Shown here piece by piece: positions 9,106 to 31,494 of a stretch of 33,233 nt of DNA. Position numbers and translations under genes: made by a program. The notes under the pieces are model-generated. The model was not told the origin of the DNA. It saw only the letters and a list, made by a program, of their open reading frames with translations, and did not search any database. The stretch's first letter is position 1, and the number at the start of each line of letters is the position of its first letter. This DNA is from a virus, in IMG/VR virus record IMGVR_UViG_3300042982_000049, positions 1 through 33,233 of that record; one strand, given 5' to 3'.

Positions 9106-9906
9106 ATGTTGACGTCACTAGCACCGCATGTTCATCGACTTAAATTTCTGTTAAACGAAAATTCGACCACTATTCTTACTGGTGTTGGTATTGTGGGCAC
9201 AGTCTCAACGGCGGTTCTAGCAGGTCGAGCGTCATTTAAGGCTGCTGCGATCATCCGCGATGAGGAGGATGAGCGTATTGCCGCGCTCACCTTTCCGGAA
9301 GTCAGTCCTGAGCCCATTAGTAAGACCGAAAAGGCTAAGATGGTTTGGCCATATTATATTCCTCCCATTGCTGTGGGTGCTGCGACAATTACTAGTATTG
9401 TCATGGCACATCGCATTTCCTCGAAGAGAATCGCTGCTCTGGCTGTTGCTTCGACTATCTCTGAGCGTGCTTTACAGGAATATAAGGCAAAAGTGGTTGA
9501 AAAACTGGGAGAGCGCCAAGAGACAGCAGTCAGAGAAGAGATTGCTCAGGATAGCATAACTAAGAATCCGCCAAGTGGTCAGGTTATTATTACGGGTTCG
9601 GGTGATGTGCTTTGCTACGATTCGCTGACAGGACGCTATTTCAATAGCACAATCGAACAGATCAAAGCTGCTGAGAATAAAGTCAATTACGAAATTATTC
9701 ATTTCGATTCGTGCAGTCTTTCAACTTTCTACGATGAAATTGGACTAAGACCAACTGATTATAGCGATATGGTTGGTTGGAATGTAGGCAATCGGATGGA
9801 GGTTAAGTTTACGACAACAATGTCCGAAGATAATCGTCCATGTCTCGTAATTGAGTTCTTGAAGATGCCAAGCATGGATTACAATAAGATATGGACGGGT
9901 GGTTGA
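9106..9906 (+). CDS. DUF6353-like membrane-associated phage protein, paralogue 1
   Basis: The 266-residue product has two hydrophobic segments, at about 20-40 (ILTGVGIVGTVSTAVLAG) and 82-100 (IPPIAVGAATITSIVMA). A conserved helix EYKAKVVEKLGERQE and a C-terminal region with STFYDEIGLRPTDYSDMVGWN follow. The same order occurs in the product of 12101-12994, so the two are paralogues. I match both to the phage family DUF6353 from memory. Function unknown; the double hydrophobic segment suggests a membrane-bound protein with a large soluble C-terminal domain. It is preceded by GAAAGGGCC and lies 13 bases after the basic peptide. Confidence 0.72.
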   Translation: MLTSLAPHVHRLKFLLNENSTTILTGVGIVGTVSTAVLAGRASFKAAAIIRDEEDERIAALTFPEVSPEPISKTEKAKMVWPYYIPPIAVGAATITSIVMAHRISSKRIAALAVASTISERALQEYKAKVVEKLGERQETAVREEIAQDSITKNPPSGQVIITGSGDVLCYDSLTGRYFNSTIEQIKAAENKVNYEIIHFDSCSLSTFYDEIGLRPTDYSDMVGWNVGNRMEVKFTTTMSEDNRPCLVIEFLKMPSMDYNKIWTGG

Positions 9907-12091: not shown

Positions 12092-12100
12092 GGAGAGATG

Positions 12101-12994
12101 ATGAACCTCGTCCCCGCGGCGATTTCAAGCAAGATCGCCCGTACAGCTCTCTTGGCGCAGAAGAGCTCTCCAGAAGTTCTTTTGGCGGCAGGAATTGCCG
12201 GCATGGTTGGCAGTACGGTTCTTGCTTGTAGAGCTACTTTAAAAATGGATGCTGTTCTAGAGGTTACAAAAGAGAAGCTCGACACAGCTAAGACTCTAGA
12301 GCACCGAAACTATAGCGAGCGCGATCGGCAGAGGGACGTGTCCCTTATTTATTACCAGACCGGGATTAAGATTGTCCGACTATATACGCCGGCAGTTGTC
12401 CTGGGAGGTCTGTCGATTTATGCGTTGACAACTTCTCATAACCTCATGGTAAAGCGAGCTGCGGCATTAACTGCGGCTTACGGAGCACTCGAGAAGGGGT
12501 TCAACGAGTATCGTGCACGTGTAGTCGAGAAGTATGGTGAGGAAGAGGATCGTAATCTTCGATATGGCTCGCAGCAGATCGAGATTGAAGATCCTAAGGG
12601 TAAAAAGAAGAATGTAACGCGCGTAAGTAATGATATCCCATCGATCTATGCTCGATTCTTTGATATGAATTCGATGTCGTGGAGCAAAGAACCCGAGTAT
12701 AATAGGCTATTTCTCCAGTGTCAGCAGAACTATGCGAATGACAAATTGCATGCTCGAGGCCACGTGTTCTTGAATGAGGTCTACGATATGCTGGGTTTGG
12801 AGAGATCAAAGGCTGGCGCAGTAGTTGGATGGGTTCTCTCAAAGAATAGTGAAACTGATAATTACATCGATTTCGGGGTATTTGATGGAAAAACGCAGGC
12901 TGCTCGTGATTTCGTCAATGGATATGAGGGAGCAATTCTACTCGATTTCAATGTCGATGGTGTAATTTACGACAAAATCGAAAATATCATATAG
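12101..12994 (+). CDS. DUF6353-like membrane-associated phage protein, paralogue 2
   Basis: The 297-residue product shares its architecture with the 9106 gene: an apolar segment at about 28-45 (VLLAAGIAGMVGSTVLA), a second at about 90-106 (PAVVLGGLSIYALTTS), the helix EYRARVVEKYGEEED and a C-terminal NEVYDMLGLERSKAGAVVGW. I chose ATG 12101 over 12098 because AGGAG is then five bases away, not two. A duplication followed by divergence is the simple explanation. The preserved C-terminal domain suggests both copies work. Function unknown. Confidence 0.75.
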   Translation: MNLVPAAISSKIARTALLAQKSSPEVLLAAGIAGMVGSTVLACRATLKMDAVLEVTKEKLDTAKTLEHRNYSERDRQRDVSLIYYQTGIKIVRLYTPAVVLGGLSIYALTTSHNLMVKRAAALTAAYGALEKGFNEYRARVVEKYGEEEDRNLRYGSQQIEIEDPKGKKKNVTRVSNDIPSIYARFFDMNSMSWSKEPEYNRLFLQCQQNYANDKLHARGHVFLNEVYDMLGLERSKAGAVVGWVLSKNSETDNYIDFGVFDGKTQAARDFVNGYEGAILLDFNVDGVIYDKIENII

Positions 12995-26807: not shown

Positions 26808-28001
26808 ATGAGTTTAGAAAAACTGAGACCACATCAAGAAGAAGCCCTCAAGCAGATGCGAGACGGGAAGATTCTGTGGGGAGGAGTCGGCTCGGGTAAA
26901 TCAAGAGTTGCTGCAGAATATTATCGAATTAATCACGATCATCAGGATGTCTATGTTATTACAACAGCTAAAAAACGCGACAGCAAAGACTGGGAAGGCG
27001 AGTTTGCAAGGATTGTTGTGGGTAAGGACCAATCCTCTACAGTTCACGGTATCCTACATGTTGATAGTTGGAATAATCTTGAGAAGTATCGGGGAGTAAA
27101 AGATGCTTTCTTCATCTTCGACGAGCAGCGTCTAGTTGGCTCAGGAACGTGGGTAAAAGCATTTTTAAAAATAGCTAAATCTAATCAATGGATCCTACTC
27201 AGCGCAACTCCAGGGGATACCTGGCTCGATTATATCCCCGTCTTCGTTGCAAACGGCTTCTACAAGAATAGAACCCAGTTCAAAACCGAGCATGTGATTT
27301 ACAAGCCGTTCACAAAGTACCCGCAGGTTGACCACTTTGTCGGAGAGGGTAAACTACTCCATCTCCGAAATCAGATATTAATACACATGCGCTATGAGAA
27401 GCAAACAGTAAGGCATGAAAAAACAGTTATTCTAAATTACAATGAGAAACTGCTCAAAGAAGTGCTCAAGAACCGCTGGCATCTGTACGAGAATCGCCCG
27501 ATCAGAGATATCTCAGAGCTCAATGGAGTATTGAGGAGAATTGTCAACGAAGATCCCGTACGTACACGAGCAATCGAGAAACTGCTCGAAGAACATCCCA
27601 AGCTGGTGATCTTCTACAATTTCAATTACGAGCTCGAGGCGCTACGAAGGATGGGAAACGATCTCAAAGAGATCAACGGAGTCAATTATGCAGAATTGAA
27701 CGGCTGGAAGCACGAGGAGATTCCTACAGGGGACAGCTGGCTTTCTTTTGTTCCATACGTCGCCGGCGCCGAAGCCTGGAATTGTATCGAGACGGATACA
27801 ATCGTATTCTATTCGTTGACATATTCGTATAAAATGTGGGAACAAGCGCACGGACGCATCGATAGACTGGATACGCCCTTCGTAGATCTCTATTATTACA
27901 CGTTACGATCGAAATCAGTCATCGATATGGCCATTTGGAGAGCTCTGAAGGCCAAAAAGAACTTCTATCCGAAGGATTTCGATCCTGAAAAGTTGGAATA
28001 G
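26808..28001 (+). CDS. SF2 DEAD/SNF2-like DNA helicase
   Basis: The 397-residue protein carries SF2 motifs in order: LRPHQEEAL (Q-like), Walker A GGVGSGKS at about 25-32, FIFDEQRLVG (DExx, about 103-112), LLSATPGDT (motif III), and QAHGRIDRLDTPF (motif VI, about 352). The second RecA domain includes KLVIFYNFNYELEAL. The layout matches phage SNF2/DEAD-type helicases that act in replication or recombination. GGATGAT precedes the ATG. The last gene of a coupled run, it is followed by a long gene-free stretch. Confidence 0.88.
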   Translation: MSLEKLRPHQEEALKQMRDGKILWGGVGSGKSRVAAEYYRINHDHQDVYVITTAKKRDSKDWEGEFARIVVGKDQSSTVHGILHVDSWNNLEKYRGVKDAFFIFDEQRLVGSGTWVKAFLKIAKSNQWILLSATPGDTWLDYIPVFVANGFYKNRTQFKTEHVIYKPFTKYPQVDHFVGEGKLLHLRNQILIHMRYEKQTVRHEKTVILNYNEKLLKEVLKNRWHLYENRPIRDISELNGVLRRIVNEDPVRTRAIEKLLEEHPKLVIFYNFNYELEALRRMGNDLKEINGVNYAELNGWKHEEIPTGDSWLSFVPYVAGAEAWNCIETDTIVFYSLTYSYKMWEQAHGRIDRLDTPFVDLYYYTLRSKSVIDMAIWRALKAKKNFYPKDFDPEKLE

Positions 28002-28418
28002 TGTGGCCATTTTTGACCAAATCTGAAAAAGACGTGTTCGGACGAGAGAAAAATGAGCGAATTTTGAGCAAATTTAGACAAGACTAAAAATCGTCCAAAT
28101 TGTAAAGAAATTGTAAATCTTTACAAATTCCTTACAATTGCCAAGATTGGATGTTGGCAGGTGTTTTGGCTTGGTAAGGGCGTTTGAAGTGGTTTTGGTC
28201 ATGCCCAAATCTGAAGGCAAAACTATCCCCTACGCGCGAGTTTAATATCTAATATAGGTTTTAGCTATTATGTCCAATACTCCAGAGGTTTTTGCCTCAA
28301 AAAATCTTGGCAAATGTAAAGAACATATCTAAAATCATTAAAACAACCTTTCAAGGTAATTTTATATCCTCCACAAGGCTCCGCCCTTGCCCAAGGCCGT
28401 AAAAGAAATGAGGACAAA
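28002..28418 (+). other. gene-free AT-rich stretch with phased palindrome
   Basis: No reading frame with a ribosome site lies in these 417 bases. It contains the phased TTGTAA array (28100-28137), a TGCCAA/TTGGCA hairpin near 28140-28160, and a CAAGG/CCTTG hairpin with a repeated CAAGGC near 28375-28400. The location after a helicase and the AT-rich content would suit an origin of replication or a control region. No promoter of the P1-P8 type is present. Confidence 0.5.
28100..28137. repeat. helically phased palindromic array of four TTGTAA half-sites
   Basis: TTGTAA occurs at 28100-28105 and 28111-28116. Its complement TTACAA occurs at 28121-28126 and 28132-28137. Centre spacings are 11, 10 and 11 bases, about one helical turn each, and the whole array is symmetric. 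Two longer inverted repeats result: TTGTAAAGA with TCTTTACAA, and AATTGTAA with TTACAATT. This is the form of a binding site for a protein tetramer or two cooperating dimers, such as a repressor or origin-binding protein. Confidence 0.7.
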
Positions 28419-28562
28419 ATGAGTAGGTTTTTGTGTTGGTTAATAGGCCATCAACCACGAGGTCCTGTAAAAGATAAGCCTATTTTATATCAATGTGATC
28501 GCTGTCTAAATTTAATTCAATTTGACAGAGAACGTGGATGGTTAATATATCATGACGAGTGA
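28419..28562 (+). CDS. DUF1660-like small zinc protein
   Basis: The 47-residue product begins MSRFLCWLIGHQP and carries YQCDRCLNLI, the order seen in DUF1660 prophage proteins (CxxGH then CxxC), and probably binds one zinc ion. GAGGA lies six bases before the ATG. It overlaps the HNH endonuclease gene by 11 bases, so the two are probably a unit. Confidence 0.66.
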   Translation: MSRFLCWLIGHQPRGPVKDKPILYQCDRCLNLIQFDRERGWLIYHDE

Positions 28563-29046
28563 ACACTGGAAAGGAATACATGAGTTTCCTGAGTATAGTG
28601 TAAGCAACTTTGGTAATGTGCGTTCTAACAAGTCTGGGAGAATTATGTCTGTTTCTCCCAATCAGTTCGGTGTTGTACAAGTCGGATTAATGAAAGATGG
28701 TGTTCAGTATCATAGATCTGTTCCTCTTCTGGTTGCTAAAGCATTCATCCCTATAAAGCCTGGTCCATTTGATACACCGATCAATCTTGATGGAGACCGC
28801 GGTAATAATCATGTTGACAATCTCGTCTGGCGACCACGTTGGTTTGCAATCAAGTACAATCGTCAGTTTAGATATTCGTTCGATAGACATATTTCTCGTC
28901 CAATCATTGATACTAAGAGTGGGGAAATTAGCCTTAATTCTTTTGAATGCGCAAAGCGGTATGGTTTGCTCGAGGAAGAGATAGTAATTGCAATAGCTAA
29001 TCGCACATATGTCTGGCCTACTTACCAAGAATTTCACATCGCATGA
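28552..29046 (+). CDS. HNH homing endonuclease with NUMOD4 motif
   Basis: The 164-residue product has a NUMOD4-type start (HWKGIHEFPEYSVSNFGNV), an HNH core (INLDGDRGNNHVDNLVW, with the last His and Asn of the motif), and a C-terminal ECAKRYGLLEEEIVIAI helix like a NUMOD1 DNA-binding helix. The first His of the HNH is not obvious, so activity is uncertain. Such enzymes cut at specific sites and spread their own gene. It is free-standing: neither neighbour looks split by an intron. Confidence 0.83.
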   Translation: MTSEHWKGIHEFPEYSVSNFGNVRSNKSGRIMSVSPNQFGVVQVGLMKDGVQYHRSVPLLVAKAFIPIKPGPFDTPINLDGDRGNNHVDNLVWRPRWFAIKYNRQFRYSFDRHISRPIIDTKSGEISLNSFECAKRYGLLEEEIVIAIANRTYVWPTYQEFHIA

Positions 29047-29327: not shown

Positions 29328-29705
29328 ATGGCTGGCCAAACCGTTAATGTTAGGCCATCAATCTTGAACCTTCTTTTATATGCTGGAGATGGGTTCAGTG
29401 TTGGACTATCGTGCAAAAATACTGCCGGTGCTCCTATTGATCTGACAGGTGCTGTGATTGCACAAATTCGTCTAGATCGCTTACATCCAGACGATCCACC
29501 TCTAGCACTATTTTCTGTTAATATGGTTGATGCCTTTCAAGGAAATGTTACATTAGTTTTAAGTGGTGAACAAACTAAAAGTTTACTCACACCAGGTGAA
29601 CCAGAGTTTAATGGTGTTTGGGATGTTCAGTGGAATGGCGTAGGTAAAGAGCCTTTTACACTCGTTCAGGGTACTGTGGAGTGTGTGGCGGATGTTACGA
29701 GATGA
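29328..29705 (+). CDS. phage structural protein with Ig-like or BppU-like fold
   Basis: The 125-residue product starts at ATG 29328 behind AAAGGAGGAG; an in-frame ATG upstream at 29271 lies inside the hairpin and is rejected. It reads ILNLLLYAGDGFSVGLSC, APIDLTGAVIAQIRLD, PPLALFSVNMVD, GNVTLVLSGEQTKSLL and VWDVQWNG, a strand pattern of N-terminal baseplate upper protein domains and of phage Ig-like modules. It is coupled to the fibre-like gene that follows, with which it overlaps by 14 bases. It is probably part of the tail tip. Confidence 0.72.
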   Translation: MAGQTVNVRPSILNLLLYAGDGFSVGLSCKNTAGAPIDLTGAVIAQIRLDRLHPDDPPLALFSVNMVDAFQGNVTLVLSGEQTKSLLTPGEPEFNGVWDVQWNGVGKEPFTLVQGTVECVADVTR

Positions 29706-31494
29706 AATAATATTAGTACTTGATCATAATTTTGATGTTGAAGTCAAGCGACCAGAATTTGTAAATTTAAATATTAATAGTTTCCCTTTTGAAGATGTGT
29801 TAGTAGAAACTCATCCGACGCGAGTTATATATATAGATTTAGAAAGTACTGAATCGGGCAACCCAATTATTAATTTTTATGGAAAAGTGGCTCGGGCAGT
29901 CTTGTTTACAAAATCGGTTATTGGTCGTAAGACAACTTTTGGTCGTTCTGCTTTTACTATTACTAATAAGATTCAAACTATTGGAACCGCATATATTGAT
30001 CCCAATAATCATAATCTTGCATCGATTCCAATTATATTTGGAAGGGCGGTTTCTGGGAAAAAAACTACCTTTGGGAAGATATCTCGAGCATTTAATGTTG
30101 ATATTCAAACTACTCCTACTGGTGGTACAACAGAAATTGTTGATTTCTATGGTGATGGTACATATGGTGAAGATACTTATGGAACGCTTATTGAATACGG
30201 CTCCGGAGAATTTTCCTTAGCAATTGGATTTGGATCAACAATTTCCGGGAGTATACCGGTTAAGCAAACGTCGGTTGGCGAGGTTAGTCTTGCTTCTCAT
30301 ACTACTCCTTTCCAACGATCAAGACATTCAATCAATATACGTGCACGTACTACAACAGGTTCAAGTGGTGTTCTTAAAGCAGCGCTTTATGAAGGAGCTG
30401 TAAATCGATCTGGAGATCTAGTTAGCGAACAATCACTAACTAACACTTTTGCTAATTATAAGTTAGATATTTCTGAAGTAGCCGCAGCTACAATCACAGA
30501 TTATTCTAATCTTTCAATTAAATTCTGGGGTTATGATCTTGGCGGAAATCCTCTTACTTTTGAGATAGCTGATATTTATCTTGAAGTTCCCATTGAAAGC
30601 GGATCGGTTCAGCACGGAGTAATATCAAGCGCATTCACCTTTGGAAGGTCTGTATCTGGAGTTATTACTAGTAAGCAAACGCCAATTGGTCAGATTAGTC
30701 TTGCTGCTCATAGTATTCCTGATACGCGCACCAATCATAAGATTAAAGTTCGTGCTCGCACTACATCAGGTTCAAATGGTGTTCTTAAAGTTGCTCTTTA
30801 TGAGGGCGCAAATAATAGATCCGGCGATTTGATAACTCAACCTTTAACTAATATTCTTGCTGAGTATACATTAGTTATACTTAATTCGATGGCTGAAACA
30901 ATTAGTGATTATTCTAATCTCTCAATTAAGTTTTGGGGATATGACATTAACGGTTCTGGTCTCGTATTTGAAGTTGCAGATATTCATCTAGAGGTTCCGG
31001 TTTCGTCCGGAAATATAACTCAGTATGGAACAATATCAAGGGCATTTACTTTTGGAAGATCTGTATCTGGTGTTATTCCTAGTACAACTAAATACGGATC
31101 TGTATCTAGAAGTATAACCTTTACAAAGGCTGTATCGGGTATTATTAAAAGCAAGAAAACAAGTATCGCTGAAATTAGTCTTGCTTCTCACGGTACTCCT
31201 TCGACACGTACAAACCACTCAATTAAAGTTCGTGCTCGAACTACTTCCGGGTCAACCGGAGTTCTTAGGGCGGAACTTTATGAGGGAACAACCTTGCGAT
31301 CTGGTGCAACTTCCTTAGAAACCTCAGCACTTACTAACTCTCTTACGGATTATACATTAGCTATCCCCGATAGTGCCGCAGCTACAATCACAGATTATTC
31401 TAATCTTTCAATTAAATTCTGGGGATTTGACGGATCAGGTAATGTATTGACATTTGAAGTTGCTGATATTTATCTAGAACTTCCTCCGGTCTAA
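29692..31494 (+). CDS. tail fibre or receptor-binding protein with three beta-sandwich repeats
   Basis: The product has 600 residues from ATG 29692; a GTG at 29683 is an alternative start. After an N-terminal region of about 190 residues, three units of about 125-130 residues follow. Each carries SLA-SH, IxVRARTT-GS-GVL, ALYEG, a TDYSNLSIKFWG core and a DIYLEVP ending. Between them lie ISRAFTFGRSVSGVI-type linkers. The units look like jelly-roll or carbohydrate-binding modules. The first and third share 50 identical bases (30481-30530 and 31375-31424). It probably binds a host surface glycan. Confidence 0.78.
   Translation: MLRDEIILVLDHNFDVEVKRPEFVNLNINSFPFEDVLVETHPTRVIYIDLESTESGNPIINFYGKVARAVLFTKSVIGRKTTFGRSAFTITNKIQTIGTAYIDPNNHNLASIPIIFGRAVSGKKTTFGKISRAFNVDIQTTPTGGTTEIVDFYGDGTYGEDTYGTLIEYGSGEFSLAIGFGSTISGSIPVKQTSVGEVSLASHTTPFQRSRHSINIRARTTTGSSGVLKAALYEGAVNRSGDLVSEQSLTNTFANYKLDISEVAAATITDYSNLSIKFWGYDLGGNPLTFEIADIYLEVPIESGSVQHGVISSAFTFGRSVSGVITSKQTPIGQISLAAHSIPDTRTNHKIKVRARTTSGSNGVLKVALYEGANNRSGDLITQPLTNILAEYTLVILNSMAETISDYSNLSIKFWGYDINGSGLVFEVADIHLEVPVSSGNITQYGTISRAFTFGRSVSGVIPSTTKYGSVSRSITFTKAVSGIIKSKKTSIAEISLASHGTPSTRTNHSIKVRARTTSGSTGVLRAELYEGTTLRSGATSLETSALTNSLTDYTLAIPDSAAATITDYSNLSIKFWGFDGSGNVLTFEVADIYLELPPV
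30481..30530 (+). repeat. 50-bp direct repeat, copy 1 (in fibre unit 1)
   Basis: The 50 bases are identical to 31375-31424 and encode AAATITDYSNLSIKFWG. The equivalent part of the middle unit (near 30890-30940) has many differences. Identity at silent positions points to recent duplication or gene conversion. Confidence 0.85.
31375..31424 (+). repeat. 50-bp direct repeat, copy 2 (in fibre unit 3)
   Basis: Identical over 50 bases to 30481-30530, 894 bases upstream. Recombination between the copies would delete exactly 298 codons in frame, removing about two units. Confidence 0.85.

Follow-up and report, generated by a model that had tools for sequence, protein, structure and literature searches.

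Comparison with relatives indicates that the TTGTAA boxes in this phage DNA are the form that a repeat set flanking a conserved element takes in this one phage. The window, by which we mean the whole 33,233-base virus record, holds a cluster of mirrored repeats around a single-copy palindromic core, in AT-rich DNA next to a helicase gene. The TTGTAA array would be part of a phage-encoded cis-acting DNA element, AT-rich, palindromic and non-coding; many phages from soil and gut, forming one large group, have this element beside their replication helicase. We consider it probable (roughly 60%) that the element serves as a replication origin of the iteron type, whose initiator half-sites change rapidly. 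The features of the region are:

26808–28001, plus strand: DNA helicase gene directly upstream of the gap (phrog_62, E = 2.8e-53)
28014–28027, minus strand: second-type half-site, TTCAGATTTGGTCA (minus strand); 14-nt repeat with 28202–28215, 93%
28086–28109, plus strand: composite repeat copy 1, AAAAATCGTCCAAATTGTAAAGAA, holding the first TTGTAA; 24-nt direct repeat with 28300–28323, 79% identical
28100–28137, no strand: array TTGTAA-N5-TTGTAA-N4-TTACAA-N5-TTACAA (exact match and palindrome statistics)
28128–28151, minus strand: composite repeat copy 2, TCCAATCTTGGCAATTGTAAGGAA (minus strand), holding the last TTACAA; inverted arms with copy 3
28196–28313, no strand: conserved palindromic core of about 118 bp, TGCCCAAAT..AAAACT..CTACGCGCGA (28230–28239)..TTAATATCTAA / TTAGCTATTA..AGGTTTTTGCC..AAATCTTGGCA (profile match, alignment A1)
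28202–28215, minus strand: second-type half-site, TTCAGATTTGGGCA (minus strand), left core arm; 14-nt repeat with 28014–28027 (alignment A1)
28300–28323, plus strand: composite repeat copy 3, AAAAATCTTGGCAAATGTAAAGAA, beyond the core; repeat with copy 1, inverted arm with copy 2
28372–28397, plus strand: two CMCAAGGC repeats 18 bp apart, between the core and the HNH gene, common in closer relatives
28419–28562, plus strand: 47-aa open reading frame (ORF) with a CxxC motif, its end overlapping the start codon of the HNH gene
28552–29046, plus strand: downstream gene for a NUMOD4/HNH protein (PF07463, E = 5.7e-9; phrog_59, E = 2.2e-22)

The array is built as the first-pass annotation had described it. 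Exact matching places TTGTAA at 28100 and 28111 on the plus strand and TTACAA at 28121 and 28132, so that the box starts lie 11, 10 and 11 bp apart, a spacing that puts all four boxes on the same face of the helix. The surrounding DNA is gene-free from 28002 to 28418, after which the 47-aa ORF begins. The claimed palindrome is present in imperfect form, with 18 of 21 arm positions pairing around a 2-bp centre; it is the top-scoring palindrome with 21-bp arms in the whole window, and 12 whole-window shuffles gave 14–17 paired positions. The array pattern, allowing up to three mismatches and picked after the array had been seen, had no match in 100 dinucleotide shuffles. A word-independent search for any 6-mer occurring four times, on either strand, within 45 bp succeeded once when the 550-bp region was shuffled 2000 times, and six times in 200 shuffles of the whole window. 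Taken alone, the array is locally strong and moderate across 33 kb, suggestive more than compelling; it becomes convincing because of the family comparison described below.

One option offered for the array had been an operator for a tetrameric regulator. The picture of a self-contained operator does not hold, since the array consists of a head-to-head pair of longer composite repeats which, together with another copy at a distance of 154 bp, flank a conserved core. The composite repeat is about 22 bp long, AATCTTGGCAAATTGTAAAGAA, and occurs three times, as the head-to-head pair at 28086–28151 and as the single copy at 28300–28323, which lies on the other side of the core. The outer boxes of the array are thus the ends of two composite units, to which an inner pair of boxes is added. 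Positions 28128–28148 and 28303–28323 form 21-nt inverted arms, 90% complementary and 154 nt apart, and the word TCTTGGCAA occurs in the window only at 28146 (minus strand) and 28305 (plus strand). A second type of site, TTCAGATTTGGnCA, is confined in the window to positions 28014 and 28202; CAGATTTGG likewise occurs only at these two half-sites. Altogether, 310 bp hold three composite copies and two second-type sites, and the key words are almost absent from the rest of the window.

Between the second and third composite units lies the core, which in alignment A1 runs in the order TGCCCAAAT, AAAACT, CTACGCGCGA, an AATA/TATTA dyad, an AAGTTTT-like word and AATCTTGGCA. A profile of the core matched the window at one place only (E = 3.4e-21) and matched the same place in reverse orientation too; because the window and many relatives are themselves among the sequences from which the profile was built, they score strongly by construction, and it is the single location and the remote hits that are informative. 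The profile reached isolates weakly (RosaAsantewaa, E = 0.015; OhMyWard, E = 0.003). It found one place per record, in many records in both orientations; the single-copy count comes from profile and pattern searches, with complete genomes profile-searched for some of the relatives. About 50 distinct relatives have a recognisable core, which in most of them lies between the helicase and the NUMOD4/HNH gene. Among seven complete isolate genomes, the element is the 300-bp stretch of lowest GC content in six and the top-ranking stretch for repeats in three. Structure prediction gave no consensus RNA fold for the core, which therefore appears to act as DNA.

The first-pass annotation had named the lack of the array at the same place in related phages as an outcome that would refute it. 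Taken literally, this is what we found: no relative examined has a TTGTAA array there, and the exact array has no match anywhere in IMG/VR. The absence does not refute a function, because the relatives carry their own repeat words at the same place. Most of them have tandem copies of such words, mirrored across the core, for example TTTGACAT in ClubPenguin, TGGGCCA in L001, TGTCACA in L003, GTGTACTTG in L104, GTTACCAAATC in OhMyWard and TTAGTCATTT in Bing. Repeated 8-mers were in excess over shuffles (p ≤ 0.01) in the helicase–HNH gap of 25 of 44 relatives, compared with 6 of 88 control segments of the same loci (Mann–Whitney, 1e-11); in 15 of the 44 the gap had no clear repeat excess (p > 0.05). 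Tandem phage-specific words lay 9–12 bp apart in 25 cases, 6–8 or 13 bp apart in 8 and 14–16 bp apart in none. Across the family, the spacing is thus about one helical turn, and the phasing is not strict. A separate group spaced at 18 bp consists mostly of the CAAGGC motif; as an RNA element these repeats were rejected, as the CMCAAGGC pair has no stable fold (z = +1.19).

The left and right arms of the element match better within a phage than between phages (permutation p about 1e-4; 52 phages), and the best arm matches are inverted in 34 cases and direct in 17. In the window, the arm match exceeds every mismatched pairing of its left flank. The simplest account of this pattern would be a phage-specific DNA-binding protein whose sites are replaced together. 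At the level of DNA similarity, the element region gave only chance-level matches to named phages.

A replication origin accommodates these observations well. The repeats are clustered in one place, the region is AT-rich, replication genes are nearby and there is a single conserved site per genome. The genes of the window include those for a primase-polymerase (phrog_4210), a single-strand annealing protein, the helicase, the NUMOD4/HNH protein, a VRR-type endonuclease and an exonuclease. In the mechanism we infer, a phage DNA-binding protein would act as initiator and recognise the repeats to the left and right of the core. These repeats are the TTCAGATTTGGnCA sites and the composite AATCTTGGCA-AATTGTAAAGAA units, the TTGTAA parts of which make up the array. 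With copies about one helical turn apart, binding could be cooperative on one face of the DNA, and would melt the AT-rich palindromic core (CTACGCGCGA and the TTAATATCTA/TAGATATTA dyad), allowing the phage helicase and primase-polymerase to load. The half-site sequence shifts fast between phages, presumably together with its protein, and the core stays constant. Among the scanned window proteins, none matched a known initiator family.

The GC-skew check suggested with the original observation gave this reading no support. In the window, skew is practically equal on either side of the element (0.119 to the left, 0.118 to the right). In several isolates, the detrended cumulative skew peaks at the element, with a sign opposite to that of a bidirectional origin. 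Third codon positions, where skew did not change consistently, do not bear out this apparent peak, which we therefore do not count as evidence for an origin.

Repeat-bearing phage origins are of a known kind; what is new here is the mirrored arrangement of fast-changing sites around a fixed palindromic core. As in the lambda-type origin, with its O-protein iterons and AT-rich region, several putative initiator-binding repeats lie beside an AT-rich stretch near replication genes (PMC7466680). However, the lambda iterons are located within the O gene and to one side of the AT-rich region, whereas the repeats described here stand in non-coding DNA as mirror images to the left and right of a conserved palindromic core. 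Their half-sites also vary between relatives, and a homologue of O was not found. Iteron plasmid origins of the RK2 and R6K type share the spacing of repeats by helical turns and cooperative binding, which in those origins is abolished by a half-turn displacement (PMC4980987); here, in contrast, no Rep protein was found in a scan of window proteins, the genome is that of a tailed phage, and its repeats are short and phage-specific. The papers searched contained nothing on the element and described no origin for this phage group.

The NUMOD4/HNH protein encoded beside the element reads INLDGD at its HNH motif, where the Asn occupies the position of the expected catalytic His. Motif comparison showed Asn in nearly all close relatives and IHLDGD in several more distant ones. 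The protein may be a catalytically dead, domesticated DNA-binding protein. In a bolder version of the origin reading, which we regard as speculative and rather improbable, a large phage group with one polymerase/helicase replication set in common would use a single fixed palindromic origin core. Each lineage would replace the initiator half-sites around this core as a set, which would limit a phage to replication by its own initiator. The adjacent HNH protein, its expected catalytic His replaced in the window's closer relatives, could then be a former homing endonuclease that has been domesticated to bind the origin.

The origin reading provides a concrete prediction for a phage group with 333 helicase-matching records, Streptomyces, Gordonia and Arthrobacter phages among them, and it can be tested by marker frequency in existing laboratory isolates. 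The combination of a fixed core with phage-specific mirrored repeats would also make initiator specificity, and exclusion between co-infecting phages, directly testable. The 333 helicase matches among named phages are all below 60% identity, those in Enterococcus phages being remote; IMG/VR holds many closer relatives of the window helicase.

An operator or promoter is the strongest competing explanation, which we regard as possible, if doubtful. A phage regulator bound to the repeats would then control the downstream operon, which comprises the 47-aa ORF, the HNH, VRR-nuclease and exonuclease genes and, in relatives, a gene for a large RNA polymerase-like protein. The element does lie upstream of that nuclease operon in most relatives, and a regulatory role has been proposed for intergenic repeats of related actinobacterial phages (PMC9302106, PMC7302621). 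These motifs (clusters EC, EG and EI, the cluster A stoperators and the CaiB repeats) are likewise short, repeated and intergenic (PMC7302621, PMC5559632, PMC9302106), but they occur genome-wide before several genes, whereas the core is single-copy and the element is present at one place per genome. The window region contains 7 promoter-like sites compared with 1.7 in shuffles, and three of the 7 are made by the TTGTAA/TACAAT boxes themselves; AT-rich sequence, however, biases a search for such sites. Of the window proteins that were scanned, none was recognised as a repressor or regulator.

The downstream gene also differs between relatives. In L099 the helicase is followed directly by nuclease genes, and it is the DNA polymerase gene that is immediately preceded by a copy of the element, with GTGTCAC repeats; in Arcadia the element precedes the VRR nuclease with no HNH gene in between. 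Because the core is kept while the downstream gene changes, we favour an origin over the promoter of one operon. Both options put forward in the first-pass annotation, an operator and an origin-binding site, thus survive, the origin as the better fit, and the conserved core is an addition to what was noticed then. In CapnMurica and FP_oengus the helicase is not directly followed by the element; a comparable AT-rich region with repeats is present elsewhere in FP_oengus, and none was found in the two gaps checked in CapnMurica.

The spacing of the array also recalls host response regulators of the OmpR/PhoB type. On one strand, both halves of the array read TTTACA-N5-TTTACA or nearly so, giving two head-to-head pairs of direct repeats with an 11-bp period. 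M. tuberculosis PhoP binds 7-bp direct repeats with a 4-bp spacer, i.e. with the same period (PMC4832192). As in PhoB/PhoP boxes, the hexamers are near-identical, and TTTACA-N5-TTTACA agrees with a repeat of about 7 bp. Identical half-arrays occur in unrelated viral contigs. We nevertheless think a host regulator site very unlikely. The array is a palindromic pair, no phosphate or stress gene is adjacent (the neighbours are the helicase, HNH and nuclease genes, in place of the phosphate-starvation genes that follow Pho boxes), and the words are not conserved in relatives, whose unrelated words at 9–12 bp in the same place a conserved host regulator would leave unexplained.

We attach similarly little probability to an RNA hairpin or terminator, formed by transcription and folding of the array after the helicase gene. 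A 48-nt stretch folds far better than shuffles (z = -6.84), but any palindrome would do so, the stem is nearly all A-U, and a tandem repeat with a third copy past the core is needless for a hairpin. The region contains no terminator-like site, there being no GC-rich stem with a T run, and no Rfam match near the gathering score. Finally, that an AT-rich stretch happened to hold four matching hexamers is barely credible: some 6-mer occurs four times within 45 bp in 3% of shuffled windows, but the array lies at the homologous place of the relatives' repeat arrays, shares its composite unit with the copy across the core, and sits in a left/right arm match stronger than all between-phage pairings of the window's left flank.

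Two further candidates concern the ends of the genome. A cos site was rejected, as the linear ends of the complete isolate records, assumed to be physical ends, are kilobases away. The word TACGCGCG resembles protelomerase targets, which would suggest a hairpin telomere; no protelomerase is annotated in the complete isolate records examined, which are deposited as linear. The half-array AATTGTAANGAANTTGTAAA had 23 viral hits, none of them with a helicase or HNH gene. Separately, three unrelated viral contigs (L200, L205 and L208) carry AATTGTAAAGAAATTGTAAA half-arrays beside TTAACA-type repeats, in a Pho-box-like arrangement.

Several genes attracted attention in passing. A 603-aa protein encoded at 29683–31494, between the HNH and nuclease genes, has several internal repeats and no PHROG match. 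In the phage group, the right-end gene (15598–18351 in L083) is annotated inconsistently between records, as 'RNA-dependent RNA polymerase' or as 'helix-turn-helix protein'. The window also encodes two members of phrog_2152, a family of unknown function, at 9106–9906 and 12098–12994, about 2 kb apart.
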